Position numbers and translations under genes: made by a program
Part shown: one piece after another, positions 1,882 through 29,184 of the stretch
How positions within the stretch are numbered: position 1 is the stretch's first letter
Layout: each line of letters starts with the position of its first letter
Notes under the pieces: generated by a model
Database searches by the model: none
What the model saw: the letters and a program-made list of their open reading frames with translations, nothing else
Told to the model about the DNA's origin: nothing
DNA from: a virus
Strand: one strand, 5' to 3'
DNA length: 49,519 nucleotides
Virus record (IMG/VR): IMGVR_UViG_3300042564_003566
Coordinates: 1-49,519 of that record

Positions 1882-1914
1882 TATTTGACACTTCCCCCAA
1901 TCCAATCCCCCAAT

Positions 1915-3420
1915 ATGTTTAATCAAAAAATCTTGTGCATAGGCAACGAGACTGAAGATACTGATCATCAAGTTTCTCAGTTGTCAAAAAATCAACAGAC
2001 TGTAAATCACGGACTTGTTACCGACGAGTCATTTGTTCCTGTTGATTTTGGATACTATCATGTCAGTATAGCTGACATGCCACCTGGTGCAATTGCACCT
2101 ATAGCATTGAATTTTGATCAGATCATAATGTTAGATCAAGCCAAAGAATCATATCCACACTGGAAATCATTTGTGGGAACATTTAGACTGATGTATGATC
2201 TAGAACAAACTGGGCACAATGTGGTTTATCGAGACAACGAGTGCAATAAAAATATCAGTTATTGGCACAACGTGCTGAGAGAAAACAAAAGTGTTTGCTT
2301 CTATCCATTTTTAGGACTGATTGACAATCTTGGAAGCACAGGGGTATGTCCCAAAAATTTTGACGCATTTACCCAAGTAAACAACATTGAAGATTGGCGT
2401 ACCAACAACAAATACAATGCCATGCGTGAAAAAATGTTGCGTGGAGAAGCAGTCACTGAATGGTGTCAAGATTGCTACCAACAAGAATCAGTTGGCCAAG
2501 AAAGCACAAGACAATTTGAAACTCTTGAATGGACCACTAGATTAGATTTTACCTCTGTAGATGACTTTAGCAAAATTGATGCCCCAGCATATTATGAAAT
2601 ACGTCCCAACAACAAATGCAACATCATGTGCCGTACTTGTGACAATGTGCGTAGTCATTTGATTGAAAAAGAATGGAAAACCATCAACATTCCACTGTGG
2701 CATTATCAACAAGCAAACATAACTTTTGAGCATGTGGACTTTGACACTGTAAAAAGAATTTATGTTGGAGGTGGAGAACCCACGGTGATGACAGAATTTT
2801 ATGATTTCTTGACCAAATGCATCGCACATGGACATACTGACTTTGAACTGGTAATTGGAACCAACGGTATGAAATTCAGTGACAAGATAATGAAACTATT
2901 CAGCAAGTTCACTGATGTTTGTTTTTCAGTAAGTTTTGATGGTTATAAAAAAGTAGGCGACTATATTCGTTGGGGCAGCGACTTCGACACTGTGACCAAG
3001 AATACTCATATGCTGTTGGATCATGGTCACAAAGTTGGACTGCAAACTGTTTTTTCTGTTTACAATGCTACTCGTATGCACGAAATTTTTGAATTTTATG
3101 ATCAAGAATTTCCTACTGCAAGCCTGCTGGTGCAATATGCTGGATTTGCTGATGACATGATGAATCCATACAACCATCCTTGCCCTGACTTGGTAATAGA
3201 CTCCATGAAAAGATGCACACAAACACAAGTGTACTATTCAAACGGAAGATCTTGCAAAACACAAGTGGATGCAATGTTGGATTGGTATACCAATCAATAT
3301 CAACTGGACGCAAACAAATTAAACAAGTTTTATGAATTTAACGATAAATTGGATAAATCACGTGGCAGTCTTTTGGCTGACTACATTCCTGAATTAGCAC
3401 AAGCTCGGAGCATGATATGA
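1915..3420 (+). CDS. Radical SAM enzyme with N-terminal accessory domain
   Basis: Radical SAM enzymes reductively cleave S-adenosylmethionine at a [4Fe-4S] cluster to start radical chemistry. The cluster motif Cx3Cx2C is intact at residues 235-242 (CNIMCRTC), followed by the SAM-binding GGGEPT segment. Upstream, VCFYPF and CQDCYQQE correspond to the N-terminal auxiliary-cluster region of the other radical SAM proteins here, but the usual CC pair is reduced to one Cys in GVCPKNF. Residues 34-83 resemble the N-terminal region of the SGNH-like protein at 572. I chose ATG 1915 (501 aa). A TTG at 1885 would add ten residues but sits inside the A+T-rich promoter-like stretch. The C-terminus ends in a DKSRGSLLADYIPEL tail shared in pattern with the paralogs. 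The stop overlaps the epimerase start (ATGA). The substrate is unknown. Confidence 0.85.
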   Translation: MFNQKILCIGNETEDTDHQVSQLSKNQQTVNHGLVTDESFVPVDFGYYHVSIADMPPGAIAPIALNFDQIIMLDQAKESYPHWKSFVGTFRLMYDLEQTGHNVVYRDNECNKNISYWHNVLRENKSVCFYPFLGLIDNLGSTGVCPKNFDAFTQVNNIEDWRTNNKYNAMREKMLRGEAVTEWCQDCYQQESVGQESTRQFETLEWTTRLDFTSVDDFSKIDAPAYYEIRPNNKCNIMCRTCDNVRSHLIEKEWKTINIPLWHYQQANITFEHVDFDTVKRIYVGGGEPTVMTEFYDFLTKCIAHGHTDFELVIGTNGMKFSDKIMKLFSKFTDVCFSVSFDGYKKVGDYIRWGSDFDTVTKNTHMLLDHGHKVGLQTVFSVYNATRMHEIFEFYDQEFPTASLLVQYAGFADDMMNPYNHPCPDLVIDSMKRCTQTQVYYSNGRSCKTQVDAMLDWYTNQYQLDANKLNKFYEFNDKLDKSRGSLLADYIPELAQARSMI

Positions 3421-4385
3421 CATTTTTAGTAACAGGCGGCCTAGGCCTCATTGGGCACAACATAGTACAACGACTACAAGCACGTGGTGAGAAAACTGTG
3501 ATCATGGACACCAAGACCACGTATGGTATTATCCCACAATCAGAAATAGACTACTTGATGGCCGAGCGTCTTGCCAAGATTGATAATCATCCTGTGTATA
3601 ACACAGACATCACAAACGCAGGTCCTGTAGACTATGTGATTGGCAAAGAGCAACCCAAAGTCATCGTTCACTGCGCAAGTTTCCCCCGACAGAAAGTGGT
3701 CAATGCCAACCCTGCGCTGGGTGCGGATGTCATGATGAAGGGGTTGATCAACTTGCTTGAGAGTGCCAAAAAACACAAAATTGAACGGTTTGTGTACATC
3801 AGTTCAAGCATGGTGTACGGAGACTTTGAAGATGATGTGTTGGAAGATGATACGTGCCGTCCGCAAGGGCAGTATGGAATAATGAAACTATGTGGAGAAG
3901 ACCTTGTCAAAGATTATGCTCGTCGTTGTAATTTTGAGTATGTTATTATTCGCCCCAGTGCTGTTTATGGGCCACTTGATGTTGAAGACCGAGTCGTTGC
4001 AAAATTCATGCTCACAGCAATGCGCGGCGGAGTGCTCCGAGTTAATGGAGCGAACGAAACACTAGACTTTACCTATGTGGATGATGCCGCCGATGGTATT
4101 GTTGCTGCCGCAACACGTATCATGTGCCGCAACATGACATTCAATATCACCAAGAGCCATTCAGTAAGTTTGTTGGAAGCTGCTGAAATGATTGTGAAGA
4201 TTGTGGGCAAGGGTACTATTGAGGTGCGTGACAAAGATGCAGACTTTCCCAGCCGCGGTGCGTTGAACATTGATCGTGCAAAGACCATCTTGAGTTTTGA
4301 TCCAAAAGTAGATGTAGAAGAAGGATTCCAAAAGTATTATGAGTGGCTTGACAATTCCGTTTACTGGAATCCGAAAACAGTATAA
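3417..4385 (+). CDS. NAD-dependent nucleotide-sugar epimerase/dehydratase (extended SDR)
   Basis: The N-terminal Rossmann motif TGGLGLIG (residues 6-13) binds NAD(P). The catalytic YxxxK is Tyr153/Lys157 (YGIMK), preceded by the Ser-rich ISSSMVYG segment that supplies the catalytic Ser/Thr. Length (322) and layout match UDP-glucose 4-epimerase-like and dTDP-glucose 4,6-dehydratase-like enzymes, which act on nucleotide sugars in the cytoplasm. Epimerase and dehydratase cannot be told apart with certainty here. It is followed at once by a DegT-type aminotransferase, a pairing typical of amino-sugar synthesis: a 4,6-dehydratase makes the keto sugar that the aminotransferase uses. It is coupled upstream to a radical SAM gene by ATGA and overlaps the next gene by 47 bases. 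Confidence 0.88.
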   Translation: MTFLVTGGLGLIGHNIVQRLQARGEKTVIMDTKTTYGIIPQSEIDYLMAERLAKIDNHPVYNTDITNAGPVDYVIGKEQPKVIVHCASFPRQKVVNANPALGADVMMKGLINLLESAKKHKIERFVYISSSMVYGDFEDDVLEDDTCRPQGQYGIMKLCGEDLVKDYARRCNFEYVIIRPSAVYGPLDVEDRVVAKFMLTAMRGGVLRVNGANETLDFTYVDDAADGIVAAATRIMCRNMTFNITKSHSVSLLEAAEMIVKIVGKGTIEVRDKDADFPSRGALNIDRAKTILSFDPKVDVEEGFQKYYEWLDNSVYWNPKTV

Positions 4386-5424
4386 CAATCTCCGCACTGA
4401 AATTCTGGATGCAACAGATATTGTGTTGCGTTCAGGGCAACTCATGAGCGGCAACTACACCTATGAGTTTGAAGATTGGCTGGCTAGACGCAATCATCAA
4501 CCCTATGCTGTGACCTGCCACTCGGGCACACAAGCCCTGGAGATCATTGCCGAATGGTATCGAACACAACTGGGTGTTCCTGATATTCCTACTGTGGCTG
4601 TGCCTACAATGACTTATCCTGCCACACTAAACGCATTTGTGCGAGCAGGTTGGAACATACACATAGTAGACACTGATCAGTATGGTGTGATGGACTTGGC
4701 CAAACTTGAGCACAACACAGACGTACAGGCCATTTGTGGCGTGGGCCTGTACGGGCAATCTGTTGCCAACATGACACAAACATTATGGGCACTGACTCAT
4801 CCCATCATAGAAGATGGGGCACAGCACTGGCTCAGCAATGACTGTCAACGTGTGGGTGACTGTGCCATCAGTTTTGATCCCACAAAAAATCTAGCCAACT
4901 ATGGCAATGGTGGTGCTGTGATCACTGCCAATGCTGGCTTGAAAGATTTTGCCCAGAATTGGATCAGCAATGGCAAGCACAGCCGACACGCAGAAATTGG
5001 TACCAACAGTAGAATGAGTGAAATAGACTGTGCGCAGATGTTGGTAAAGACTCGTTATATCGATCAGTGGCAACAACGCAGGCGAACCATTGCCAAACAC
5101 TGGATGGAGATGCTAAAGGGCAAGCCTTGGATCACTTGCTTGATTGATGATAGCAACTTTGACAAACACTGTTTTCACAAATTTGTGATTCATGTGGACA
5201 ATCGAGATATCTTGCAACGCAACCTTGCCTTGCGTGGTGTTGAGACCAAAGTACACTACCCAACACCCATGCACGAGTTACCAGCGTATCAACACTATCT
5301 GTGTCCAGACTTGCTCAGTGCCGGCAGCAGTCTGGCACGTAGATGTTTGAGCCTTCCTATCTATCCTGAACTAACAGACTTGGAAGTTGAATACATTATT
5401 GATCAGGTGTTAGACTGCGTTTGA
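4339..5424 (+). CDS. DegT/DnrJ/EryC1/StrS-family PLP aminotransferase
   Basis: These enzymes transfer an amino group to keto nucleotide sugars using PLP. Key sites are visible: Lys183 in SFDPTKNL (Schiff-base lysine), Asp159 in IIEDGAQ (binds the PLP pyridine nitrogen), the HSGTQAL cofactor phosphate site at residues 61-67, and the typical opening IPFTGIRKQYNNL. The ATG at 4339, inside the preceding gene, is supported because the family N-terminus starts there. Length (361) is normal. With the epimerase/dehydratase it likely produces an amino sugar, which a later guanidino- or carbamoyl-transfer step could decorate. The 3' end runs 29 bases into the convergent gene at 5396. Confidence 0.92.
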   Translation: MSGLTIPFTGIRKQYNNLRTEILDATDIVLRSGQLMSGNYTYEFEDWLARRNHQPYAVTCHSGTQALEIIAEWYRTQLGVPDIPTVAVPTMTYPATLNAFVRAGWNIHIVDTDQYGVMDLAKLEHNTDVQAICGVGLYGQSVANMTQTLWALTHPIIEDGAQHWLSNDCQRVGDCAISFDPTKNLANYGNGGAVITANAGLKDFAQNWISNGKHSRHAEIGTNSRMSEIDCAQMLVKTRYIDQWQQRRRTIAKHWMEMLKGKPWITCLIDDSNFDKHCFHKFVIHVDNRDILQRNLALRGVETKVHYPTPMHELPAYQHYLCPDLLSAGSSLARRCLSLPIYPELTDLEVEYIIDQVLDCV

Positions 5425-7402
5425 CAAACGCATAGGTGGCCAACCAAGACCACTCATAACTTTTCTTCAAGGCGTCAAAGTCGCCGCCAACTGAATCATA
5501 ATACTCTGCACCATCCTCTGCACCTTTGCGACTCCATTGCCCGTCTGTGGTATCAACAGTGAGCCAACGATTGAGTCTGTGCTCGCTTTCCACATCAGGC
5601 AAACTGGCCTTCAGTTTTAACACTTCACGGAATGCAGTGCGCCAGCACATCCAATCCGATTCATGGTACATGGCTGTGCCTGACACAATGGGCACAACTT
5701 CGTGTGGTTGGTCTAGTGTAAAGTCCAGACCTTGCCCTGTGTTCTCCAACACCAACCGTTTATTATATGCAATCACGGCCTGATGTCCATACACCAATCC
5801 GTTCACAGGATTGTGTGCGTGAAATATATAGTGCTTGGGTTGTTGCATGCGATCAGGTTGCCACGACCAGTCAAAATCCGCAGTTACTTCTAGTTTGGCA
5901 AACACAGCAAAGAACCAAGGTGTGCGACTGTGCCTGGCAGCCTCTTGATATGCTGCCACACGTCCGTTGATGCCCGACACATGATGTATTTGGTTCGCAG
6001 CAACACGGGTTGAATTTTTTGTCCATTGCAAATGTTCAAAATAAATGCCAGCATTTATTTCACCGTTGCTGATGAATACAATGTCCAACACTGAGTCTTG
6101 CAATATGCGCCGTGTTCGATCTATGTAGGGATAGTCATACAACTGTGTCTTTATGTGAGGCACAGCCGTACGTGGTACCACAACTGTGCCGGCACCGTCA
6201 CTGATGGGCATGATAGTTTTGGTCTCTTCGCGCCACAGTGGCACAGTGACCATGTTTCCGGGCACATAATTGTAGTTGGTAAATGTGGCCAAGGGTCCTG
6301 CCCAGTCAGTGTTCTTTACTGCATCAACATGACTGTCACCATCGTGAAGTATAACAGGCATGGGTCTACGTGGCACAGCGGTTTTGATAAAGTTTACATC
6401 ATACCATTCCAACAATGCTTTCTTTTCTGCTCTGGCAGCAAATGTGGGCACATGCATGAAGAAGGTGTCTCCAAACTTTTGGTCATTGCTGGCAAACACA
6501 TGCAACATGGTGGCTTGCCATTGTTCAGGATGCCATGAAAAGTCAAAATCCGTATAGTCACAGATACTGCTGCATATCCAAACAAACTCATGTTCGGTGC
6601 CTATGCTCTTGGCAATGCGTATTAGTGTATCTCTGTAGTTGTCAAAGTAGCGCACAGTCCGTGTGGTGTTGACGATTTTGCCTGCCGCACCACACAAGTG
6701 ATCTATTTCATATACAGCAGTGGCCACTCGATTGGTTATAGCACGTATTTGATCCACATACTTGATGTCTGTGGCACCTGCTACAGTGTATACTGGCCCG
6801 CCGGTGCGTTGATGCTGTGTGCCAAACTGGTATATGTACGGAGGATCAAAGGGATTTGGATGCCACGACTGGTCCACCGGCTCAACACCTAGCGGAACCG
6901 TCCACGATTTTTTGGTAGGCTTTGCTACAGCATGTTGAGCTGTTTCTAGTTTGATTGAATCAGCACCCAAATTATACACAGGTCCACCTGCTGATTGCCA
7001 TTGTGTGCCGAAATGATGTTGGTAGTGATCGCTGGGTAAGGAGTGCCAAGAGAAATCAAAACTGTCTGCATCTATGTTTGACGGTATGCGCCATCCATCA
7101 CGACTGCTCAGTCTTGCGATTGTACGATCTGTATGGTAGTTTGTGTGTTCATAGCCCTCACGTGGCACAAGGTATGTGCCCGAATCTGGTTGCCATTGAC
7201 TGGCCCATGCATGCCGCTGATCGGCTTGCCAAGGAGGGGGTTCAAAAAGCCAGTCCCAGTCTTGGTAATCTGCTAAGTAATGCACAATCCAGAAAAATCG
7301 TGTGCGACTCAACTTCTGCGCATGCTGGAATGAATCCACCGATCTCTCGTGTGGGAACAAATTTGGCTTATACCCATCTGAAAAATAAAATACGTCAAAC
7401 AT
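5396..7402 (-). CDS. Repeat-containing glycosyltransferase-like protein (668 aa)
   Basis: No standard enzyme motif is intact. The protein is built from repeats of a module of the form hydrophobic strand, then (D/F)DxSWxP, then a gap, then H/Q-x-F...GxVY. Copies lie near residues 32-80, 113-145, 178-206, 269-318 and 492-545. Two longer units also share the opening FDVFYFSDG / LDIVFISNG. The last copy (NGLVYGHQAV) and the following Trp-rich segment (CWRTAFREVLKL) match the layout of the transferase at 25068 (NGLMYGNGG, AWRAGFREGVKM). That protein has a DGDN metal site, whereas the corresponding strand here (WFFAVFAKLEVTADF) lacks a DxD. It may be a multi-domain transferase or a catalytically dead, glycan-binding relative. 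Its start codon overlaps the divergent gene at 7401. Confidence 0.65.
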   Translation of the reverse strand: MFDVFYFSDGYKPNLFPHERSVDSFQHAQKLSRTRFFWIVHYLADYQDWDWLFEPPPWQADQRHAWASQWQPDSGTYLVPREGYEHTNYHTDRTIARLSSRDGWRIPSNIDADSFDFSWHSLPSDHYQHHFGTQWQSAGGPVYNLGADSIKLETAQHAVAKPTKKSWTVPLGVEPVDQSWHPNPFDPPYIYQFGTQHQRTGGPVYTVAGATDIKYVDQIRAITNRVATAVYEIDHLCGAAGKIVNTTRTVRYFDNYRDTLIRIAKSIGTEHEFVWICSSICDYTDFDFSWHPEQWQATMLHVFASNDQKFGDTFFMHVPTFAARAEKKALLEWYDVNFIKTAVPRRPMPVILHDGDSHVDAVKNTDWAGPLATFTNYNYVPGNMVTVPLWREETKTIMPISDGAGTVVVPRTAVPHIKTQLYDYPYIDRTRRILQDSVLDIVFISNGEINAGIYFEHLQWTKNSTRVAANQIHHVSGINGRVAAYQEAARHSRTPWFFAVFAKLEVTADFDWSWQPDRMQQPKHYIFHAHNPVNGLVYGHQAVIAYNKRLVLENTGQGLDFTLDQPHEVVPIVSGTAMYHESDWMCWRTAFREVLKLKASLPDVESEHRLNRWLTVDTTDGQWSRKGAEDGAEYYDSVGGDFDALKKSYEWSWLATYAFVKRSLTPDQ
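5768..7309 (-). repeat. Five protein-level repeats of a (D/F)DxSWxP...GxVY module
   Basis: Degenerate copies at residues about 32-80, 113-145, 178-206, 269-318 and 492-545 of the 668-residue protein. They share an aromatic strand, an acidic-Trp-Pro turn and a Gly-x-Val-Tyr end. DNA-level identity is low, so the duplications are old. Confidence 0.55.
7363..7391 (+). promoter_or_regulatory. Candidate sigma70-like promoter for the 7401 gene
   Basis: TTGGCT at 7363-7368 and TAAAAT at 7386-7391 are spaced by 17 bases and lie nine bases before ATG 7401. Both sit inside the first codons of the divergent gene. The match is moderate (4/6 and 5/6). Confidence 0.35.
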
Positions 7403-8588
7403 GCTTAGAATAGATGAAATTTATGATAACACAATCTGGCCTTGGATTAAAAAATATCATCCTGGTGTAAGATTATGGTGGTGTGAACCATTTGGCAGAA
7501 CTGATCCAGCTAGCTTAATTAATTATGGCAGCGATAATGCAATTGAACACAATTATACACTATTATGGGACCAAGAGCCTATTCATTTGAACATACACAT
7601 ACCTACATTTAAACAAGTAGTTAGTAACAATCAAAACTTGCACCGAGCAGTAGATCGGCGCAACCATCTAAATCAATTGGCCATTGACAGTGGATATAAC
7701 AAACCACTAAATATCAATCGACAAGTAGGCGCAATTATTACTAGTGAACGCGATAGTGACGCAGTTGATGCAGTATGCAACCAATTTGGATGGAAACATT
7801 ATTACTATTTTTTCCATGGTTGGGCAGCATTGGATTGGTATCGCGGATACGATAAGACTTTTTTAATCCAGCCTTGGACTGAAAGAACTATTAATCAAAC
7901 ATTTTTGGCTCCGAATCGCATTGTGGCAGGAGAGCGTGAACACAGATTGGAAATGCTGTATTGGATATTCCGACTGGGCATGACTGACAATCACATATCA
8001 TGCCCCAGTATATGTCCTGCAGAGAATATTCCAATACTGGATGCTGTGAAATCACTTAACACAAGGTATCCTGATATTGAAACAGTGTTTGCACGCCAGC
8101 CGCTGCCATTAAATTTCAAAGACGAAACTGGTCATCCCATGCAATCTTGCTGGTTAGATTTATTTGATCAGTCTGCTGAAAGTTTGTTATATTTGGTTAC
8201 TGAGACCGTGGCCACAGGACGTAGACATCATTTGACTGAGAAAACATTCAAACCCATTGCCATGGGCATGCCTTTTATTATTGTAGGCACACAAGGTAGT
8301 TTGAAGTATCTGCGCAGTTATGGATTCCGAACATTTGGTGACTTGTGGGATGAAAGTTATGATGACGAACCAGATGATTCACGGCGCATAGAAAAAATTG
8401 CACAGGTATTGAAACAGTTAGATGGCCTGGAAGAACATCGTCAAGACATATTTGAAAGTGCATGGGAAATCATAGAGCACAACTGGAATCATTTTTATGG
8501 CGGTGGCTTTGAACAAATATTGTGGCAAGAACTAAAGGACATGTTGAATGACATTGAATTTGATAGCGGACCGAATAGTCAACGGTAA
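7401..8588 (+). CDS. Glycosyltransferase-like protein, TEKxFKP family (copy 1)
   Basis: The C-terminal half has the block ETVATGRRHHLTEKTFKP (near residues 270-286), then a hydrophobic strand (MPFIIVG), SLKYLRSYGFRTF and DESYD. This resembles the nucleotide-sugar-binding end of exostosin/fucosyltransferase-like GT-B proteins, where a Glu/Lys pair follows a Thr/Ser. The donor and acceptor cannot be read from sequence. Two further copies of this block lie at 8548 and 21525 in this window. The start ATG is shared with the divergent gene on the other strand (CATG at 7400-7403), so its promoter must lie inside that gene. The 3' end overlaps the next gene by 41 bases. Confidence 0.65.
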   Translation: MLRIDEIYDNTIWPWIKKYHPGVRLWWCEPFGRTDPASLINYGSDNAIEHNYTLLWDQEPIHLNIHIPTFKQVVSNNQNLHRAVDRRNHLNQLAIDSGYNKPLNINRQVGAIITSERDSDAVDAVCNQFGWKHYYYFFHGWAALDWYRGYDKTFLIQPWTERTINQTFLAPNRIVAGEREHRLEMLYWIFRLGMTDNHISCPSICPAENIPILDAVKSLNTRYPDIETVFARQPLPLNFKDETGHPMQSCWLDLFDQSAESLLYLVTETVATGRRHHLTEKTFKPIAMGMPFIIVGTQGSLKYLRSYGFRTFGDLWDESYDDEPDDSRRIEKIAQVLKQLDGLEEHRQDIFESAWEIIEHNWNHFYGGGFEQILWQELKDMLNDIEFDSGPNSQR

Positions 8589-9705
8589 AATATACCCTGC
8601 TCTAGCCCAGACGCTAGATCAAGATTTTGATCGACACTATCCGTACACTGTGCCTTTGCGTCTACAAGAGTATTGCGTTGAACATGGTGTTGAACTAAAC
8701 ATCACGGACATTGATTCTGAATGGCCGGCTGAGGTATTGTACCCAGTGGGATTGGGTTTCTTCGACTTTAGCATTGACTACTTTGAACTAATGCCTGAAC
8801 GCATACGTACCGGATTGTTCTTTGATGATGTGCGTGTGCTGTTTTACTATCACGAAGGTGATAACCCTTTGCGTATTAAAATCAGACTGGACGAACTATG
8901 CGCCAAGCACAATTTGCGCAAGAACTGTTATGTGTTTGTGAGTGGCAATACTGCTGCCAAACAGTTAAAAAACTTTGTGTACTTTACAGACTTTGAACTT
9001 TGGTACTATCAACGCAACCGAGCAAACCTTGCACTAAAGATACATCACAATCCAAGAGAACGTGAGTTTACTGTGCTCAACAGACTGCACAAATCATGGC
9101 GTGCCTTGGCCATGGCTGATTTAAAGCACAACGGAATACTAGATAATTCATACTGGAGTTATTGCGAGTCAGGTGAGTTTGTGGATGTAGACTGTGCTAT
9201 TGAGATTGATGATATATCAGGATTACGCACTAGAACTGAAAAGTTTTTACAATCAGCTCCATATATCAGCGACGAGTTAGATTTTGACCAGCGCAATGAT
9301 CACAAAACTCTAGTACCCAAGTATCATGCCAACAGTTATTGCAACATTGTAATGGAAACACATTTTGATATTGAATCTAGTGGTGCATTTTTAACCGAAA
9401 AAACATTCAAACCTATCAAGCATGGACAAATGTTTTTTGTGGCAGGACCTGCTGGCAGTTTGCAAGTGTTGCGGGATCTGGGATATTGTGTGTTTGATTC
9501 GGTGTTGGACAACAGTTATGATCTTGAGCCCAATGCCACACAGCGTTGGATGGCATTGACTCGATCAATCTTTTTTACTCAACCAGATTTGCCACAACTG
9601 TTTGAACTGTGTCGTGCAGATATAGAACATAACCAACAGTTATTTCTTGCCAGCAAGAAGGACCGTTTAAATACCCTAATCAAGGAAATCAATGAATCCC
9701 ATTAA
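8548..9705 (+). CDS. Glycosyltransferase-like protein, TEKxFKP family (copy 2)
   Basis: Paralog of the preceding gene: ETHFDIESSGAFLTEKTFKP near residue 270-289, then a MFFVAGPAGSLQVLRDLGY strand-helix unit and NSYDLEP. The N-terminal half differs more, as expected if it binds a different acceptor. The start at 8548 lies inside the upstream gene. It is favoured by the purine-rich AAGGA about nine bases ahead and by the natural beginning of a strand (MTLNLIADRIVNGK). Adjacent duplicated transferases suggest successive sugar additions. The end overlaps the amidinotransferase start by 14 bases, and an AAGGA ribosome-binding site for that gene lies in this gene's last codons. Confidence 0.65.
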   Translation: MTLNLIADRIVNGKIYPALAQTLDQDFDRHYPYTVPLRLQEYCVEHGVELNITDIDSEWPAEVLYPVGLGFFDFSIDYFELMPERIRTGLFFDDVRVLFYYHEGDNPLRIKIRLDELCAKHNLRKNCYVFVSGNTAAKQLKNFVYFTDFELWYYQRNRANLALKIHHNPREREFTVLNRLHKSWRALAMADLKHNGILDNSYWSYCESGEFVDVDCAIEIDDISGLRTRTEKFLQSAPYISDELDFDQRNDHKTLVPKYHANSYCNIVMETHFDIESSGAFLTEKTFKPIKHGQMFFVAGPAGSLQVLRDLGYCVFDSVLDNSYDLEPNATQRWMALTRSIFFTQPDLPQLFELCRADIEHNQQLFLASKKDRLNTLIKEINESH

Positions 9706-10732
9706 CTCATATACCAGTTGGCAACCACTAGAAGAAGTTATTGTGGGTCGTGCATATACACCAGACTATTTTGACTTTATCGAAAATGCTCAAGTGCGAA
9801 ATCAACTGCAACAGATATTATATGAAACTGAGGAAGATTTATCTAATTTGCAAAAAACCATTGAGACTTATGGTGCGCGAGTACAAAGACCCAACCTTCC
9901 CAACAAACACCAATTTCAACAAAATCAAATAAGTGGAGAAGGTGCACCACTACCGCCACTCACACCAAGAGACTGGCAGATCACACTAGGTAATAAGTTG
10001 TTGCGTGTACTAGCTATGCAAGAGTTAGATGGATTATGTGCTGAGTACGAAGCAGTACAACCTAATTCAGTTATCAACCCACATGGACCCACAGGGTGGG
10101 ACGAGAATTGTATTTTAAATGGTGCCAGTGCCAGTTGCATTGTGCGTGTGGGTCGTGATGTGTTCTTTGACAATAGCGGTTTTTTACGTCCAGATCAAAC
10201 TCGCTGGATTGTGGACAATGTGCTAGGGCCCGAATATAGAATACACGAAGCAATCACAGATGGACACGGCGATGCTGTGTTTGCCATACTCAAGCCAGGA
10301 GTGTTGCTGAGTAGCAAGCATGACGTAAATTTAAACTTGGCTGCAGACTTTCCAGGATGGGACGTTTGCAAAATATGGGATAGTAGTATCTGGGCTGCTA
10401 TGGAAGTTGGCAAGTTCAAGTATGAGTCTAGCCCAGGTGCGTGGTATGTGCAAGGACAAACACCCACACCTGAGTTTACAGACTTTGTGAACACTTATCT
10501 AACCAAGTGGATTGGATTTGTTGCTGAAACTGTTTTTGATGTCAACTGCCTGGTGTTGGATGAGTCTCACGTTATATTCAGTGCATACAACCGAGAAGTG
10601 TTTGACTATTGCCGTAAGCACCGGATAGAACCCATCATCTCAGAACTTCGTCACAGTTACTTTTGGGATGGTGGTATCAGTTGTTGCACTCAAGACATTC
10701 GACGTCGCGGTGGCCTGGAGACTTATCTCTAA
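9692..10732 (+). CDS. Amidinotransferase (glycine/inosamine amidinotransferase-like, guanidino-modifying family)
   Basis: The enzyme moves an amidino group from arginine to an amine acceptor, or acts on a related guanidino substrate, through a covalent Cys-amidino intermediate. Seen: EEVIVGRAYTPDYF at the N-terminus; HxDxxF with following PGVLLS (His192, Asp194), as around the active-site His of arginine:glycine amidinotransferase; and the C-terminal catalytic Cys in WDGGISCC (probably Cys331). Length 346 fits the family. StrB-type relatives act on aminocyclitols and AGAT acts on glycine. With an aminotransferase and carbamoyltransferase nearby, guanidinylation of an amino sugar or amino acid is plausible. 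A hydrolase activity (arginine or dimethylarginine deiminase-like) is the alternative. A clear AGGA site precedes ATG 9692. The stop overlaps the opposing gene's stop. Confidence 0.85.
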   Translation: MNPINSYTSWQPLEEVIVGRAYTPDYFDFIENAQVRNQLQQILYETEEDLSNLQKTIETYGARVQRPNLPNKHQFQQNQISGEGAPLPPLTPRDWQITLGNKLLRVLAMQELDGLCAEYEAVQPNSVINPHGPTGWDENCILNGASASCIVRVGRDVFFDNSGFLRPDQTRWIVDNVLGPEYRIHEAITDGHGDAVFAILKPGVLLSSKHDVNLNLAADFPGWDVCKIWDSSIWAAMEVGKFKYESSPGAWYVQGQTPTPEFTDFVNTYLTKWIGFVAETVFDVNCLVLDESHVIFSAYNREVFDYCRKHRIEPIISELRHSYFWDGGISCCTQDIRRRGGLETYL

Positions 10733-20198: not shown

Positions 20199-21532
20199 AA
20201 ATTATTATACCATTCGCTTATTTTAGAAAAGCACTTGTCAAAACTTTTGCCACGACGTTGATCGTATTGTGTGTAAAACTGTTTAAAGTCATTCAACAGT
20301 TTTGGCATTTCAAATGCTTCCGAGTGTGGAGTTTCAACAACATCTAAGTAATCAATTAGTCGTTGCACATGATTGACTTCATGTTCGTGCAAACAAGGAT
20401 TTTCACGATTGTGGAACAACCATGCTTCCAACTGCAAACGATAACCAGTACGTATATGGTCAGGTAATACCAAAGCACTCTGGAAACTAGGAAAGCGCAA
20501 GATGTTCAATGTAAAGTTCAGTTGATCACGCCCGTAACGTTGTTTTAAATTCAACATCAAGTTGAGGTGGTCCACAAGACTGTCCAGGCACAAGGCATTG
20601 ATGGTACACATCACATGCACTGCACTGACAAATCGACCTTCCAACAAAAACAATACATTGTTCAGCCATTGATCATAGTTCAGGCCATCTCTAATATACT
20701 CTGCTTGAGCAAATGTGGCTTCCATAGAGGTATATAGATCCACCTTGGGCAATGCAGCGATCGCCACTGCAAAGTCTTTCATCTTGTCCAAGTCAATGCC
20801 AAGATTTGAATTGATTGCTAACCGGGTGTTGCTACGTCCTTGATTGTTTTTAAACCATTCAATCAGTTGCCAGGTGTAGCCTGACATCAGCGGCTCACCG
20901 CCAGTTATTCGGAGTTCTTGCAGGGTGCGGTGGAGGTCTCGTTCCCACCAGTCAAAGAAGGCTTCCACATACGGATTAGTCTCACCGAATTTATAAAGTT
21001 GACTATTATCATGAGTGTGAGTAAAATGGTTCCTGCCATCGCTAACAAGTCCGATGTAGGGCCCATGTTTCCGGATGTCATTGACCCAAGTGGAACTAAA
21101 AGCAGGATTGCAATAAGAACAAGCAAATTGACAAGTGCGATCAAAACTAATTTCGAGAGTTCTAAGATTGACATCGTCTTGGACGGGAGTGTTAACAGCT
21201 TCATGCAAGGCCTCTATGGGATAAATTTTACTTTTGTACACACGGTCACTCACAGCGTCAGTGTGCATGTCTTCGATCTTCCAGCAGTATTCGCATCCAG
21301 CAGGGCGTTCACCAGCCAACATCTTGCGCCGGTCCGCTTTCTTCTCATCAGTATTGTGCAGCAGCCTAGAGTTGTTATTGACTTTATCAGCGTCAATCAA
21401 ATGGGCTGGCGGGTGATGGCAACTTGTGGTCTGCCCACTTCCTAACCAAATGGTAGCATTGTACCATTTCGCCGCACAAAAACTTGAGGACACAGGGTCC
21501 AACACTTGTTGTTTAAATTCTAAATCATTCAT
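20195..21532 (-). CDS. Radical SAM enzyme (class B)
   Basis: Core motif CQFACSYC at 134-141, then RITGGEPLM. N-terminal class B cysteines: FCAAKW (19), SCHHPP (38) and CEYC (80-83), with LLHNTDEKK and RKMLAGERP between. The CHxPP motif replaces the CC pair of class A. This is shared with the paralog at 22612. The C-terminus has DQRRGKSFDKCFSKI, the common basic tail. A SPASM-type auxiliary cluster is likely but the ligand set differs. Start overlaps the upstream transferase stop by 8 bases. Length 445. Substrate unknown. Confidence 0.88.
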   Translation of the reverse strand: MNDLEFKQQVLDPVSSSFCAAKWYNATIWLGSGQTTSCHHPPAHLIDADKVNNNSRLLHNTDEKKADRRKMLAGERPAGCEYCWKIEDMHTDAVSDRVYKSKIYPIEALHEAVNTPVQDDVNLRTLEISFDRTCQFACSYCNPAFSSTWVNDIRKHGPYIGLVSDGRNHFTHTHDNSQLYKFGETNPYVEAFFDWWERDLHRTLQELRITGGEPLMSGYTWQLIEWFKNNQGRSNTRLAINSNLGIDLDKMKDFAVAIAALPKVDLYTSMEATFAQAEYIRDGLNYDQWLNNVLFLLEGRFVSAVHVMCTINALCLDSLVDHLNLMLNLKQRYGRDQLNFTLNILRFPSFQSALVLPDHIRTGYRLQLEAWLFHNRENPCLHEHEVNHVQRLIDYLDVVETPHSEAFEMPKLLNDFKQFYTQYDQRRGKSFDKCFSKISEWYNNL

Positions 21533-22628
21533 TTATGTATTGGGTCAGTCTTTCAGGAAGTTCTGCACGTTCGCGAGCATTGTGTTCGCGAAGTTGTTGA
21601 TAGTTGTATTTACAAACGGATTCAGCGGCTTCCAAGAAACTGGCAGCACCATTATAACATATATCTGCCACAACGTCAACTATTCTGTCAGCACGATCTT
21701 TTGGATCATCAATCTGATCAAATGTTTCGTCAATCAAGTGCCTGAATGTTTGAAATCCTGCTGAATGTAAATCTCTATAGTATCCTCGGTTGGCTGCTAC
21801 CACAAACGGGTGACACATAATCATGGGTTTCCATATCTTCTCTGTACGGAATGTATAAGGGTAGTCAAATATGGTTTCTGTGACTACACTGAAGTACGTG
21901 TCAATGTAGGCGGCAGGGTTGACTTCGGCATCGCCCCAAGTGTTATCAAACAAATGATGTTTTACGAATCCTGCAGGCACTGTGTCCATGTTAGACAATG
22001 CACGATTAATTTCATAATGTTTAGGTAATAGTCGCACAGGTTCTGAGTTACCAGTTTGTAGTTGACTGGTCCAGGGCATTTCCACTCGATCATTGAGATT
22101 GGTCCACAGTGCTCGATCCAACAACTTGCGATCACGCATGACATCTATTAGATACTTGCGATGTGGGCGTAGTCGACCGTTGAGAAACAAAAAGTCATAA
22201 GGTTTGTTTTGTTTGTGATACACTTGTGGGTGCGATTCGTGCGCACGTAGATTTTCTAGGTACTCCACAATGTTGGAGAAGTAGCAGTCTGTCTTACAGT
22301 AACGCAAGCCGGGCTCCATGTCTCCGGATGTTAATAATAAAATTTCACCTCGGCAAACTTGTTCTTTGATGCGCAGGCGTGCGAGTTGCAACAGTATGGT
22401 TTCGCTGCCTTCTGCAGGATTTGAAAACACAATGCGCCCAGGATAATGCCTTGCCCATTCTGTTATTTCTGTCCAGTGGTTTTTTAATGTCACACGCCCA
22501 ACAATATACACATTGTTGGGATCAAGTACAATGTCAGAGTATTGCCAGAAGCTCTCATCTGCATACGGCTTGAGCAAGTCCCACACTTCGGCCCACTCAT
22601 CCACAATGATTTTACGATTGCCTAGCAT
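21525..22628 (-). CDS. Glycosyltransferase-like protein, TEKxxKP family (copy 3)
   Basis: Shares the C-terminal signature of the proteins at 7401 and 8548: SVVTETIFDYPYTFRTEKIWKP, then a hydrophobic strand (HPFVVAAN), YRDLHSAGFQTF and DETFD. The middle carries YDFLFLNGRLRPHRKYLIDVM, a segment seen in exostosin-like transferases. I place the start at ATG 22628, because GGAGG lies about 11 bases upstream and homologous strands begin there. An upstream ATG at 22709 would add 27 residues wholly inside the preceding radical SAM gene. This gives 367 residues. It is the only transferase of this type inside the radical SAM run, which ties those enzymes to glycan chemistry. Confidence 0.68.
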   Translation of the reverse strand: MLGNRKIIVDEWAEVWDLLKPYADESFWQYSDIVLDPNNVYIVGRVTLKNHWTEITEWARHYPGRIVFSNPAEGSETILLQLARLRIKEQVCRGEILLLTSGDMEPGLRYCKTDCYFSNIVEYLENLRAHESHPQVYHKQNKPYDFLFLNGRLRPHRKYLIDVMRDRKLLDRALWTNLNDRVEMPWTSQLQTGNSEPVRLLPKHYEINRALSNMDTVPAGFVKHHLFDNTWGDAEVNPAAYIDTYFSVVTETIFDYPYTFRTEKIWKPMIMCHPFVVAANRGYYRDLHSAGFQTFRHLIDETFDQIDDPKDRADRIVDVVADICYNGAASFLEAAESVCKYNYQQLREHNARERAELPERLTQYINE

Positions 22629-24009
22629 GGTATGCACACTCCTCCCACCATGCCCGCATCTCAGGAAATGTCGCCAAAAAGTTTGTGTCACGACGCTGAT
22701 CGTGTTCATTAAAGAAACGATAGAAGTCTGCTTTGGCTTGTGAGTGATCAGTTAACTGTGCTGATCGCATCCAGGCGATGTCACGATCCAGTCTGTGCAG
22801 TTCATAGTCCTTGAATCCTTTGAATGGTTCTTCTTCTGTTTCAATCTGTCTCACCATCCATGCCCACAACCATTCCAGTTTCTCTGCATAACTCTCAGGC
22901 AGTATCTGCAGGCTTTGCCACGCAGGTTCACGTAGCACGGGGGTATCGAACCACACACGTTGATAGTCCGTGCTGTATACTTTGCGCAAGCCCAGGATGC
23001 CAGCAAACAGTTTGTCCAGACTGGTCACACTGAGATTGTTCATTGTGATGATAAATGTCAAACTTGAGTAGTTGGGAACTTCTGTAAGAAACTGATTTAC
23101 TCGGTCCCACAATAAATCAAAGTCCAGGCCATGTCGCATATATTCTGCTTGAGCTCCCCACCCATCCAGGCTCACATACTGCATGAAGTGTTCAATGCGG
23201 CCATCACATATTTGTTTTACATACCCCAGGTACTTTTGCCATGACTTCTCATCTACTGAGAAGTTGCTTGTGACATTCAAATGTAGTTTAGGGCTAGGGT
23301 TCGCCAACACATAATCAAACACCCTATATGTGTTTTTGTCCATAAGTGGCTCACCACCGGTCATGCGGAAATGTTCTAAGTGAGGGTACAAGTCTGGCCA
23401 CCACTGCCAGAAGGCATCAACATAAGGGTTTGATTCTCGAACGGGAATAGCACGGCGACTGCCAGCAAAATGCTCAGGAGCATTATGAGGCACCAGGGTA
23501 GGATATGCTCCCAGTCGAGCGACTTCATCTGCCCATGAGCTACTAAACTGAGGGCTGCAATAACTACACCGCAGATTGCAAGCGTGATTAAAATTAACTT
23601 CAACATAACTGGGAATGACATTTTCCGCTCCTGTGCTGTTCTTTATTGATTCAAAATCCACTGCTGCCCAAGGCTCACCTGAGCGATAGTGTCGATCACT
23701 TAACTTGCCCTGGTCTTCCATGTTCCAGCAGTAAGAGCATTCTGTGGGCTTCTCACCTGCCAACATCATTCGGCGCTGTTGTTTTTTATAATTAGTATTG
23801 TGCAATGCTGACACATCTATTGCAATCTCTGCAGGATTGATTGGATGCAGTGGTGGATGGTAGCATGAGTTATTCATGCCTGTGGTCAAATGCAAGCTGA
23901 CCTGTTTCCACTTGGCCAAGCACAGTGCAGGACCTAGTTGATCGTGCATTTGTTCAGCAGAACTAAGAAACTTGCTCTTGTTGTTTACTGACTCGTTGCC
24001 CTTGTTCAT
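22612..24009 (-). CDS. Radical SAM enzyme (class B)
   Basis: Core motif CNLRCSYC at 144-151 followed by RMTGGEPLM. Auxiliary region before it: LCLAKW (30), SCYHPP (49), ALHNTNYKK and CSYC (91-94), the same class B order as at 20195. The VxLDGWGAQAEYMRHG segment lies where the other class B enzymes have an EYIR/YVRxGL motif. C-terminal tail DQRRDTNFLATFPEM. 465 residues, start coupled by ATGA to the upstream gene. The pair with 20195 separated by a transferase suggests duplication with intervening insertion. Confidence 0.9.
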   Translation of the reverse strand: MNKGNESVNNKSKFLSSAEQMHDQLGPALCLAKWKQVSLHLTTGMNNSCYHPPLHPINPAEIAIDVSALHNTNYKKQQRRMMLAGEKPTECSYCWNMEDQGKLSDRHYRSGEPWAAVDFESIKNSTGAENVIPSYVEVNFNHACNLRCSYCSPQFSSSWADEVARLGAYPTLVPHNAPEHFAGSRRAIPVRESNPYVDAFWQWWPDLYPHLEHFRMTGGEPLMDKNTYRVFDYVLANPSPKLHLNVTSNFSVDEKSWQKYLGYVKQICDGRIEHFMQYVSLDGWGAQAEYMRHGLDFDLLWDRVNQFLTEVPNYSSLTFIITMNNLSVTSLDKLFAGILGLRKVYSTDYQRVWFDTPVLREPAWQSLQILPESYAEKLEWLWAWMVRQIETEEEPFKGFKDYELHRLDRDIAWMRSAQLTDHSQAKADFYRFFNEHDQRRDTNFLATFPEMRAWWEECAYHARQS

Positions 24010-25061
24010 ATTAACTTCAATGCAGATTTTTTAAAAGGAAGAAAATCAAACAAACTTTCTCCTCTTATTTTGTCTAGTAATAGAGTTTGCATAACTGTGT
24101 CTCTGAACAAATATTGATTAACATTGTCATTTATTTGTGACCTCATATAATTGCATTTGTTTTCATCGTGATATATTTTTTCAATACTATCAACACACGC
24201 AATGGCTAAACTTTTAAGGTCATCAGGTATGGCTGATAACGTCAAACACTCAGGGTAATATAAGTCAGTTAAATTAACTGAAATTTTTTGATCTTTAAAA
24301 AATACCAGTAATTCTTCCAAGAACCATAAATTTAAAATACTCACAGTTGTACCAATATTTAATTTTACATTGTGAGGTTTTAACTCATTGATATTTTTAA
24401 TTACTGTGTCCCATGATCCACCTGACCGTATATGATTAAATTTTTCACCAACCGCATCAATACTGGCTGTAATTTGCACTGATTTAAAATTTTTCCAAAT
24501 ATCTAAAATGTTTTTGTCTTTAAATTTTAGTACTGACATATTCGAATTATACTGCAACTCAATGTTCTTGCTTAGACCTTGCAATACCAACTCTTCTAAT
24601 AGATCCCAATGTTCAAGGTTGATCAACGGTTCGCCGCCTGTGTAGTAAATGTGTTTTACACTTTCGTTAACAATAATTTTTTTATAATCAGTCAAAGGAA
24701 AATGTCTAATTGGATTAATTTCTCCAACTTCTTTAGCCCAAAGATTGCTATTATAAGGCCCGCATGACCTACATTTAAAATTACACAAATTTGTGTTTCT
24801 TATATCAACAAACTGAAATCCTAGATTGTCTTTCTTTCTACGATTAAATGATTGCCGATAACTTGGCAGTTTGTTTGCTTCTGCATCAACACAAACTTTG
24901 CACTCAATAGGAGGTTCAAATGTTTTTAAATCTTTAAATGGTTGGTTGTGAATCTCAGTGATATCTTTTCTATATGTGTGGGTTATTAGACAACATGGTG
25001 CTATCTTTCCATTTTCATAAAAAGTAACACCATGATCGATTGCTGCACATTGCCAAGTCAT
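24006..25061 (-). CDS. Radical SAM enzyme (class A, shortest copy)
   Basis: At 351 residues the most compact paralog. Auxiliary cysteines QCAAIDH (Cys5), APCC (23-24) and CKVC (54-57) precede the core CNFKCRSC at 93-100 and YTGGEPLI. The gene is conspicuously A+T-rich and encodes many Lys, Asn and Ile residues compared with neighbours on both sides, so it may have come from a different phage or host. C-terminal tail LDKIRGESLFDFLPF. A six-base gap to the upstream transferase is one of few small gaps in the run. Substrate unknown. Confidence 0.9.
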   Translation of the reverse strand: MTWQCAAIDHGVTFYENGKIAPCCLITHTYRKDITEIHNQPFKDLKTFEPPIECKVCVDAEANKLPSYRQSFNRRKKDNLGFQFVDIRNTNLCNFKCRSCGPYNSNLWAKEVGEINPIRHFPLTDYKKIIVNESVKHIYYTGGEPLINLEHWDLLEELVLQGLSKNIELQYNSNMSVLKFKDKNILDIWKNFKSVQITASIDAVGEKFNHIRSGGSWDTVIKNINELKPHNVKLNIGTTVSILNLWFLEELLVFFKDQKISVNLTDLYYPECLTLSAIPDDLKSLAIACVDSIEKIYHDENKCNYMRSQINDNVNQYLFRDTVMQTLLLDKIRGESLFDFLPFKKSALKLI

Positions 25062-25067
25062 ACAATA

Positions 25068-28166: not shown

Positions 28167-28171
28167 AATGC

Positions 28172-28219: not shown

Positions 28220-28221
28220 GG

Positions 28222-29172: not shown

Positions 29173-29184
29173 TTTTGTTTCCTA

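Follow-up and report, generated by a model that had tools for sequence, protein, structure and literature searches.

Radical SAM Enzymes of the Window

Why would a virus encode eight paralogous radical SAM enzymes mixed with sugar-modifying genes, and do these enzymes act together? The question is raised by a stretch of viral DNA of 49,519 nucleotides (IMG/VR record IMGVR_UViG_3300042564_003566; hereafter, the window), for which an earlier note had claimed eight such proteins and suggested an undescribed joint pathway.

According to our analysis, the eight proteins (R1-R8; Table 1) are indeed present. Each contains a CX3CX2C motif with GGE 49 to 77 residues further on, and each was matched by PF04055, both in a six-frame search (three over the cut-off) and by hmmscan (E ≤0.007, two over the cut-off); R8 scored 53.8 bits with Radical_SAM. 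Motifs and PF04055 thus place all eight in the radical SAM superfamily, with the fold modelled for R5 alone. The profile search against radical SAM subfamilies recommended earlier assigned all of them to a single one, NF033640, in which an N-terminal twitch precedes the radical SAM domain (191 to 389 bits; curated cut-off, 170 bits). They are divergent paralogs, with 20-32% identity in the pairs aligned by BLAST at E 1e-3 (a few pairs gave no alignment at this limit), and the nearest paralog of R6 is R7 (32%). Sixteen columns, including seven cysteines and the GGE, are invariant across all eight. Four N-terminal cysteines, candidates for binding an auxiliary cluster, are invariant in R1-R8 and are kept in all non-redundant core orthologs covering those columns. 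R3 has a SPASM match in its N-terminal part, and R5 is extended at its N terminus by a further domain, roughly 140-160 aa long, which is absent from most orthologs (residue 40 is covered in 27 of 128). The R1 ORF contains an in-frame ATG at 1915.

The genes R2 to R8 form a run on the minus strand (14445-25061), previously described as seven genes in a single ATGA-linked series. This description is correct for five junctions (R3/R2, R4/R3, R5/R4, R6/R5 and R8/R7), but a gene without radical SAM motifs (21525-22709) separates R6 from R7, and at the two junctions flanking it the genes overlap by 8 bases and by up to 98 bases.

Table 1. Features of the window; genes other than R1-R8 are named in the text by their first coordinate.
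Feature	Position	Strand	Evidence and occurrence
R1, accessory radical SAM enzyme, 511 aa, beside sugar genes	1885..3420	+	NF033640 224 bits
NAD-dependent sugar epimerase/dehydratase	3417..4385	+	PF01370 140 bits
DegT/DnrJ/EryC1/StrS aminotransferase	4339..5424	+	PF01041 185 bits
Protein sharing a domain with 25068	5396..7402	-	sequence comparison within window
21525-family protein	7401..8588	+	sequence comparison within window
21525-family protein	8548..9705	+	sequence comparison within window
Amidinotransferase, Arg:Gly/inosamine-phosphate kind	9692..10732	+	profile matches E ≤1e-27; 64/105 loci
FkbM-type methyltransferase	10729..11514	-	PF05050 72 bits
Carbamoyltransferase, Carbam_trans N + C domains	11511..12998	-	PF02543 126, PF16861 163 bits; 106/116 loci
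PagP-like small protein	12988..13332	-	phrog_3600 E 3e-8
Conserved protein adjoining R2	13427..14491	-	118/121 loci
R2, core radical SAM enzyme, 425 aa	14445..15722	-	NF033640 266 bits; 129/131 loci
R3, core radical SAM enzyme, 401 aa	15719..16924	-	NF033640 335 bits; 138/140 loci
R4, accessory radical SAM enzyme, 535 aa	16921..18528	-	NF033640 191 bits; 19/129 loci
R5, core radical SAM enzyme, 557 aa	18525..20198	-	NF033640 389 bits; locus-search anchor
R6, core radical SAM enzyme, 445 aa	20195..21532	-	NF033640 286 bits; 140/140 loci
Conserved protein between R7 and R6, 7401/8548 family	21525..22709	-	104/137 loci
R7, core radical SAM enzyme, 465 aa	22612..24009	-	NF033640 322 bits; 135/136 testable loci
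R8, accessory N-terminal-twitch radical SAM enzyme, 351 aa	24006..25061	-	NF033640 237 bits; 7/134 testable loci
Predicted GT-A-like protein, directly upstream of R8/R7	25068..26036	-	model; 129/134 loci
GT8-like protein (weak evidence)	26313..27080	-	joint profile with 27064 vs glycogenin E 0.002
GT8-like protein (weak evidence)	27064..27918	-	joint profile with 26313 vs glycogenin E 0.002
Ser/Thr/Gly-rich protein	28222-29172	-	role inferred from position and composition
Tail-fibre-like protein	29185-30972	-	PHROG structural and tail-fibre matches
Protein with jumbo-phage homologs, some annotated structural	30997..31605	-	homologs in 60 phage records
Giant virion structural protein, 5336 aa	within 31771..49505	-	PHROG match; N-terminal 1334 aa scanned
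Baseplate wedge protein	47781-49505	-	PHROG match

Conservation of a Five-Enzyme Module

Of 122 testable viral loci, 106 have the genes R7, R6, R5, R3 and R2 in exactly this order, and 11 further loci contain all five in order together with an extra copy. An independent scan anchored on R2 recovered R6-R5 upstream of R2 in each of the 72 loci with enough DNA, including all 29 whose R2 protein was absent from the earlier ORF set. These five enzymes are the core, whereas R8, R4 and R1 are accessory, occasional extras; R1 was the best match of an ORF in one of 81 loci, most loci not reaching the R1 region. The claim of a joint set is therefore upheld for five members rather than eight. The Fe-S cysteines are unchanged in each core ortholog group (111 to 128 non-redundant orthologs each; 120/120 for R7), and pN/pS ranges from 0.085 to 0.26 among the pairs listed for R2, R3, R6 and R7. 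Of the two findings named beforehand as fatal to a joint system, neither is indicated by the sequences: instead of unrelated, randomly spread copies we see one subfamily co-inherited in a fixed order, and the cluster cysteines, as read from sequence, have been kept in all eight proteins and in the five core ortholog groups.

Genes inserted between the core genes (41 representatives) encode an epimerase, a GHMP kinase, a UDP-sugar dehydrogenase and at least two methyltransferases, along with another five radical SAM proteins and a SAM synthetase; the representative of the largest inserted group (32 of 129 ORFs) had no Pfam match. The module is co-oriented in one run with tail/baseplate genes, and baseplate and structural genes are present in the window (PHROG matches). 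No promoter evidence for the run was found.

At least 593 stretches in IMG/VR encode relatives of R2. NF033640 matches (E ≤0.001) numbered 5 to 19 per record in all 40 IMG/VR records of a subset picked, mainly by length, from 80 found. A T4-type portal protein (PF07230) was detected in 30 of 40 cassette-bearing records, likewise picked mainly by length. Of 40 phage records, 21 encode an A-type Fe-S carrier, as do 17 of the 18 records longer than 200 kb. When R2, R3 and R5-R8 were compared by tblastn with 50,697 GenBank phage records (E ≤1e-5), R5, R8 and R2 each matched two records, R3 matched three, and R7 and R6 matched none. Two of the GenBank phages, Vibrio phages K566 and K567, show 21-24% identity to R5, R8, R2 and R3 and gave no match to R6 or R7; K566 has six PF04055 and six NF033640 matches, two of the latter above the cut-off, and a gene annotated PagP nearby. 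The expectation that phages carry none or one such enzyme thus fits the GenBank phage records (0-3 matched per query), but not the large uncultured aquatic phages.

Neighboring Genes

Sugar-handling genes belong to the conserved neighborhood of the module. Profile matches of the amidinotransferase include AGAT, HsvA, SxtG and StrB1-type chains. The model of the 25068 protein (pLDDT 85) had 2p6w as its best Foldseek match (E 5.5e-4) and was aligned by VIA-align with B4GALNT1 (Z 9.0, rmsd 3.1, 138 residues); the GT-A match is middling, and sugar nucleotidyltransferases reached Z 8.4. Its DGDN motif is conserved, and the DxD-like residues D78, D80 and N81 are invariant in 24 sequences. Among the members of the 26313/27064 group, one of 30 matches PF03407 at E 0.005.

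The 21525 protein, whose C-terminal domain is common to 7401 and 8548, appears glycosyltransferase-like by eye; searches of PDB sequences returned nothing significant for it, no Pfam family exceeded its cut-off, and an ATG at 22628 agrees better with its orthologs than the start of the listed frame. The 13427 protein had no Pfam, NCBIfam, PHROGs or PDB sequence match at the limits used, and sequence and profile searches confirmed no fold or family for 21525, 7401, 8548 or 13427. On the structural side, the 30997 protein has a PHROG match of unknown function and shares 57% identity with a protein of Sinorhizobium phage Phosso; its homolog in CBB is named a structural protein.

Fold and Twitch Domain Comparisons

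The R5 model (pLDDT 91) was similarly close to BlsE (Z 12.8, rmsd 3.5, 222 residues), SuiB (Z 12.6, rmsd 4.0, 208 residues), DesII (Z 12.4, rmsd 3.9, 232 residues) and anSME (Z 12.4, rmsd 3.6, 222 residues). The predicted fold ties sugar enzymes with peptide maturases and does not separate the two. The N-terminal domain profile (residues 25-96) matched residues 183-257 of BtrN, the 2-deoxy-scyllo-inosamine dehydrogenase (E 3.9e-7), a region located after the barrel in BtrN and before the barrel here.

Several more specific family assignments found no support. A BtrN-type sugar dehydrogenase requires a C-terminal twitch, and the matching region is N-terminal in our proteins. With the curated models for RiPP peptide maturases, R1 reaches 46.5 of 450 bits, and the listed matches (the best 25 for R8) are far under the cut-offs. 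For viperin (NF038283), no score exceeded 28.7 bits, the cut-off being 180.

Bacterial Kin and Published Context

In Bacteriovoracaceae UBA6144 (Bdellovibrionota; L085/L232), kin of R6, R2, R3, R5 and R7 lie in one chromosomal run, flanked by genes read as obg/L21/rsfS and lgt. These copies are sister to phage R6, R2 and R3 (support 100) and R5 (84) and are among the nearest to R7, but their order differs from that of the phage module, and no glycosyltransferase was recognized nearby. Other Bdellovibrionota chromosomes carry R6-R2-R3-R6 (L247), R2-R3 (L248, L250) or a lone R2 (L251), in surroundings that read by eye as housekeeping, with no glycosyltransferase seen nearby. Among 131 ORFs neighboring bacterial kin, six were GT2 and three GDSL. 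In one locus (L249), a carbamoyltransferase homolog and genes that by eye resemble those of an ABC polysaccharide exporter are both found no more than about 10 kb from an R6-like gene. Four of 18 bacterial genomes, all chosen for having an NF033640 match, had 20 to 33 of them.

No account of the five-enzyme module was found in the literature searched, and in this respect the word "undescribed" was justified. However, a T4-like phage rich in radical SAM genes had already been printed in 2017: TARA_ERS488813_N000010, with 12 of them (PMC5332604). By its description, it resembles the records studied here in being T4-like and aquatic and in combining many radical SAM genes with an A-type Fe-S carrier; the parts of that article available to us give the gene count within Fe-S metabolism, without order, subfamily or pathway. 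Radical SAM gene cassettes were also described in 2020 in the host-recognition region of pelagimyophages (PMC7029224), where, as here, they occur with glycosyltransferases near the tail fibers of T4-like phages; in the portions consulted they are termed variable, and no subfamily is given. Enrichment of radical SAM together with glycosyltransferases was seen in phage contigs from the Tasman Sea (PMC7150976, 2020, as far as the available text goes). As for NF033640 (N_Twi_rSAM, twitch domain-containing), its N-terminal cysteine domain precedes the radical SAM core as in R1-R8; the name gives no function, whereas the phage case is a fixed module of five paralogs.

A Proposed Tailoring Pathway and Its Alternatives

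Based on these results, we propose that the run is a conserved multi-step radical tailoring pathway of large T4-like phages, most likely acting on a glycan, and give this reading about an even chance (probability of roughly 0.5). Each core enzyme would cleave SAM and abstract hydrogen at a different position of one common acceptor, with the N-terminal auxiliary cluster possibly serving electron transfer or substrate binding. The acceptor may be a glycan built by the neighboring glycosyltransferase-like proteins and further altered by carbamoyl, amidino, amino and methyl transfer, its pattern being varied by R8, R4 and R1. Late in infection, it might be put on the virion (tail or fiber) or the host envelope, where it could change adsorption or block other phages. 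The single subfamily, fixed order, kept cysteines and pN/pS values argue for this proposal, as do the predicted GT-A-like fold of the 25068 protein, the Pfam-supported neighbors, the amidinotransferase, the inserted genes, the BtrN-like twitch, the Fe-S carrier and the GT2/GDSL and L249 neighbors in bacteria. Against it stand the Bdellovibrionota copies located among housekeeping genes, the tied folds, the middling 25068 match, the family-less neighbors and the absent promoter evidence.

A further point against glycan tailoring comes from two cultured relatives, Sinorhizobium phage Phosso and Agrobacterium phage Atu_ph07, which share the upstream structural genes of the window. At the corresponding position, they carry four radical SAM genes that do not belong to NF033640 (≤24 bits), adjoining a protein of about 300 aa with a precursor-like Cys-His repeat tail that ends in CHTSCHASCHSSRSRR or CHSSCHASCHNSRSRR; no glycosyltransferase is annotated at the locus. 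This array makes the main rival the possibility that the cassette's radical SAM enzymes act on a virion protein or peptide much as RiPP maturases do, the sugar genes being a neighboring, separate function. The cassette does sit in a tail/fiber locus, many peptide maturase models do match at scores under their cut-offs (most clearly with R1 and R8), and SuiB, CteB, SkfB and anSME rank among the best folds for the R5 model. However, no NCBIfam peptide-maturase model was matched over its cut-off, and the gene overlaps leave no room for a precursor within the radical SAM run. A scan for Cys-rich or repeated tails (ORFs of at least 35 aa, 147 viral loci and the window), which other precursor types would escape, recognized no conserved cassette gene among 42 hits: two were the Phosso and Atu_ph07 proteins, one was an ORF of 45 aa within the window's giant gene, and the other 39, in other viral loci, lay opposite the cassette strand (30) or on it (9). 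The 28222 orthologs listed in that scan have 0 to 3 cysteines. We consider peptide modification possible, though unlikely.

A wider suggestion, made tentatively, is that jumbo-phage tail loci recurrently hold radical SAM arrays, assembled at least twice from different superfamily branches, that modify virion proteins or glycans and so change adsorption or stability.

Amidinotransferases, carbamoyltransferases, DegT aminotransferases and BtrN-like twitch domains are gene kinds of aminoglycoside pathways. Their presence here, with an amidinotransferase of the StrB1 kind, could point to a small diffusible compound, an aminoglycoside-like or guanidino-sugar metabolite acting on the host or on competitors. 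We regard this as improbable, as the glycosyltransferase-like genes and the tail locus indicate a polymer or surface, 41 of the 105 testable loci yielded no amidinotransferase, and a Pfam scan of 30 window ORFs matched no exporter or resistance family. Still less probable is that the genes are loosely assembled auxiliary metabolic genes for Fe-S metabolism aiding the host, the reading given to the 12 radical SAM genes by Nishimura and co-workers in the available part of their article (PMC5332604). It agrees with the Fe-S carrier gene in many records, but that carrier can equally be read as supplying the radical SAM enzymes, and five specific paralogs of one subfamily are co-inherited in fixed order. 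Finally, counter-defense by viperin-like makers of chain terminators or by DNA modifiers, suggested by weak viperin matches, is very improbable given scores of at most 29 bits for NF038283 (cut-off 180), the tail locus and the sugar genes.

Significance

Were the five co-inherited radical SAM enzymes to share one substrate, they would form a radical pathway of unusual density for a virus. The product, once shown, would give a function to NF033640 and would reveal how large aquatic phages alter their own particles or the cell surface. With laboratory-type hosts named in their records, Phosso and Atu_ph07 make the wider question testable; if the array reading holds, it would mean a new layer of radical chemistry on the phage particle.

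Eight radical SAM proteins in one gene run

The window comprises 49,519 bases with a GC content of 43% and is the complete sequence of one IMG/VR virus record. Most likely it is only part of a larger phage: baseplate and giant structural genes lie at its right end, and the cassette also occurs in records of up to 350 kb. All eight radical SAM proteins (R1–R8) claimed in the earlier note were recovered: each has the CX3CX2C and GGE motifs, each matches Radical_SAM, and in the suggested profile search against radical SAM subfamilies all eight exceeded the curated cut-off (170 bits) of one NCBIfam subfamily, NF033640, whose model is entitled twitch domain-containing radical SAM protein. They are divergent paralogs, with 20–32% identity in the pairs that BLAST aligns and 16 columns invariant across all eight. 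The minus-strand run described for seven of them stands, but it is not a single ATGA-linked series, as gene 21525 interrupts it between R6 and R7 and the ATGA junctions number five. Outside the run, the N-terminal part of the protein encoded from 572 resembles by eye the extra N-terminal part of R1, with no BLAST hit at 1e-3. These and other features are located in the table.

Coordinates of features in the window and in compared loci
Record	Positions	Strand	Feature
Window	72–575		ThyX-type thymidylate synthase (PF02511), left edge of the tail/sugar region
Window	572–1537		Protein with SGNH-hydrolase-like C-terminal end (by eye)
Window	1885–3420		R1
Window	12800–32000		Stretch scanned for promoter-like and terminator-like sites
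Window	12988–13332		PagP-like protein
Window	14445–25061	minus	Radical SAM run
Window	16921–18528		R4, starting with two copies of a DY..A.G..WP.Y-like motif (by eye)
L180	16175–17278		Phage S-adenosylmethionine synthetase
L207	16800–17636		Commonest inserted gene, SGNH hydrolase-like by eye
L232	13928–14890		Small-nucleotidyltransferase-like by eye
L249	1173–2102		Small-nucleotidyltransferase-like by eye
L253 (Phosso)	22306–23226		Protein with Cys-His-Ser repeat tail
L255 (Atu_ph07)	23062–23952		Protein with Cys-His-Ser repeat tail

A fixed module across viral loci

The observations go beyond the multi-enzyme set originally proposed, as five of the eight enzymes (R7, R6, R5, R3 and R2) form a module of constant make-up that is widespread and has a counterpart in bacteria. 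An IMG/VR scan with R5 yielded 257 stretches encoding relatives, of which the best 80 were used, and a further scan, queried with an alignment of three enzymes, added more distant relatives as the best 80 of a longer list. The usual gene order, found in most loci, is 27064, 26313, 25068, R7, 21525, R6, R5, R3, R2, 13427 and a carbamoyltransferase gene, beyond which an amidinotransferase gene and its neighbours often follow on the opposite strand. With near-duplicate records left in, as in all gene-order and presence counts including the R2-anchored ones, the exact R7-R6-R5-R3-R2 order was found in 106 of the 122 loci with sufficient flanking DNA at either end; 11 loci had the five and an extra copy, and 5 lacked one. 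When only loci whose DNA extends far enough are counted, R7 was present in 135/136, R6 in 140/140, R3 in 138/140 and R2 in 129/131, with the R5 anchor in 145 of 147 viral loci. Among the neighbours, 25068 was present in 129/134, 13427 in 118/121, the carbamoyltransferase in 106/116, 21525 in 104/137 and the amidinotransferase in 64/105, and the accessory enzymes R4 and R8 in 19/129 and 7/134, respectively.

Since these loci had been found or confirmed through R5 and so give no independent evidence on R5 itself, IMG/VR was also scanned with R2 (at least 593 stretches; the best 80 used, 79 of these read, 72 with 6.2 kb upstream). R6 followed by R5 lay upstream of R2 in all 72 loci with enough DNA, including all 29 whose R2 protein was new relative to the earlier ORFs. 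Within the 7 kb covered upstream, R7 was missing from 18 of the 72, and an R3 above 38% identity from 9. The core enzymes are thus co-inherited in a fixed order and position as a joint set rather than as scattered single enzymes, which supports the earlier idea of a joint pathway. No description of the module was among the papers listed in a literature search of open-access journals.

Other genes occur inside individual cassettes. One record has an S-adenosylmethionine synthetase gene within its radical SAM cassette, and the L207 gene, a representative with no Pfam match, accounts together with 31 relatives for 32 of the 129 ORFs inserted among the core genes.

Enzyme integrity and probable Fe-S supply

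After reduction at 95% identity, the ortholog sets comprised 111 (R2), 117 (R3), 128 (R5), 124 (R6) and 120 (R7) sequences, reaching down to 39–52% identity to the window proteins. The Cys residues of the CX3CX2C motif and of the N-terminal cluster motif were unchanged in all core orthologs covering them. The pN/pS ratios of the reported pairs were 0.085–0.26 for R2, R3, R6 and R7, no R5 pair falling within the identity range used. One further Cys, invariant in each of R2–R7 in a first set, was considered as a sign of radical epimerases; in the wider set, which excluded R4, it was lost in 1/111 R2, 1/117 R3, 9/128 R5, 5/124 R6 and 2/120 R7 sequences, and is kept only as a lead. In the predicted R5 model it comes after the helix preceding strand 431–434.

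The phages also seem to supply Fe-S clusters, since an A-type carrier (PF01521) is encoded in 17 of 18 records above 200 kb and in 4 of 22 shorter ones, making 21 of the 40 records, which had been selected chiefly by length. As a rough comparison, a 2017 survey (PMC5332604), which covered viral genomes of every kind, reports a gene of this type in 14 of 1,352.

Bacterial relatives

In a tree of 98 proteins (quick method, midpoint root), which included other phage copies as previously suggested, phage R2, R5, R6 and R7 each formed one group (SH-aLRT 96, 95, 92 and 99), as did phage R3 (97) except for one distant row with 22% identity. A chromosomal run in Bacteriovoracaceae UBA6144 (L085/L232) encodes the sister proteins of phage R6, R2 and R3, with support 100, and of phage R5, with support 84, while the proteins nearest to phage R7 are, equally, one from this run and one from genome G059. 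The run is bacterial, because it lies between genes that read by eye as obg/L21/rsfS and lgt, the families of which were also matched. R2-like proteins (E ≤1e-60) were found in 10 of 240 genomes of the same phylum, and all six genomes whose R2-like match exceeds 500 bits belong to the 12 whose R6-like match exceeds 540 bits (at most 7 candidates scored per genome). This co-occurrence and the L085 run indicate that R2 and R6 also travel together outside phages, as do all five enzymes in L085.

Evidence tying the bacterial module to glycans is mixed, because GT2 and GDSL genes are neighbours in one set (34 Radical_SAM, 6 GT2 and 3 GDSL among 131 ORFs of 13 loci, anchors counted), whereas the other set, six Bdellovibrionota stretches with 53 ORFs, gave 7 Radical_SAM and otherwise families of 1–2 members, many of them housekeeping, among 25 of 48 families listed. 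Between 20 and 33 NF033640 matches were found in 4 of 18 bacterial genomes searched; G072 and G073 (L227–L230) have 33 and 22, many of them clustered, over about 30 kb in G072, where the cluster includes an amidinotransferase homolog (32%). The L232 and L249 genes in the table both neighbour R6-like genes and may represent a common partner.

Neighbouring genes

The protein 25068, which adjoins the run in nearly all loci, has a predicted GT-A-like core (pLDDT 85) with DGDN aspartates invariant in 24/24 sequences. Its best Foldseek match was the PBCV-1 capsid glycosyltransferase (E 5.5e-4) and its best VIA-align match B4GALNT1 (Z 9.0, rmsd 3.1, 138 residues), though nucleotidyltransferases came within 1 Z of it. 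Clear Pfam membership was seen for the carbamoyltransferase, the DegT aminotransferase, the epimerase and the FkbM enzyme; the amidinotransferase profile matches Arg:Gly amidinotransferase, HsvA, SxtG and inosamine-phosphate amidinotransferase, and 26313/27064 match glycogenin weakly (E 0.002). Pfam and PDB sequence comparison confirmed no family for 21525 and its two kin. The candidate late-promoter motif TATAAATA is present a single time in the window against 1.76 expected, and the scanned stretch contains 39 promoter-like sites against 41 expected and 23 terminator-like sites against 17, evidence neither way.

Cultured phages and the substrate

Among 40 records picked mainly because they are long, 30 encode a T4-type portal, and the protein 30997 shares 57% identity with its homolog in Sinorhizobium phage Phosso, 54% with that in Agrobacterium phage Atu_ph07, and 43–45% with those in CBB/GAP32 and the Salmonella jumbo phages listed. 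None of these phages was matched by the core enzymes in a tblastn search of 50,697 phage records with R2, R3, R5, R6, R7, R8 and 25068; the matches were confined to Vibrio phages K566/K567 and, for R3, a single marine record, at 21–26% identity. K566 also has a PagP-annotated gene near its radical SAM genes, as the window has a PagP-like one.

Past the 30997 homolog and a fibre gene, Phosso instead encodes four other radical SAM proteins (290, 284 and 283 annotated, 287 recognized by motif and PF04055), and Atu_ph07 the same set, annotated as hypothetical; in contrast to R1–R8 these lie outside NF033640 (at most 24 bits). Among them is a protein of about 300 aa (Phosso 289, Atu_ph07 952) that ends in CHTSCHASCHSSRSRR in one phage and CHSSCHASCHNSRSRR in the other and looks like a peptide-maturation (RiPP-type) substrate. 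The Cys-His-Ser repeat tail is conserved in both phages. A common partner shared with Phosso 285 / Atu_ph07 948 was sought in 13427 and rejected (hhalign E 0.049, probability 1%; three other comparisons 0.39–0.51).

The fold of R5 does not decide the substrate, as sugar and peptide enzymes rank together among the Foldseek and VIA-align matches listed. The R5 model (pLDDT 91) aligned with BlsE (Z 12.8, rmsd 3.5, 222 residues) and SuiB (12.6, 4.0, 208), tied with DesII (12.4, 3.9, 232), anSME (12.4, 3.6, 222) and others. Its core profile matched an unnamed radical SAM protein (8vpo), viperin, SkfB and archaeal tetraether synthase, and its N-terminal domain profile matched BtrN 183–257 (E 3.9e-7).

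That the enzymes modify a virion protein or peptide, in the manner of RiPP maturases, appears rather doubtful. The strongest reason for keeping it open is that Phosso and Atu_ph07 have another radical SAM array at the same locus with a tailed putative substrate; a tail scan recognized no such tail in the window cassette. The small protein 25981, tried as a peptide precursor, has a Cys and a Trp close to its end that are invariant in the alignment, and showed no leader/core pattern.

A glycan substrate is the best explanation, with a probability of about 0.5. On this reading, the radical SAM enzymes would carry out their chemistry on one common substrate with a glycan as the acceptor, the pathway would act late in infection, and its product may have a role at a surface.
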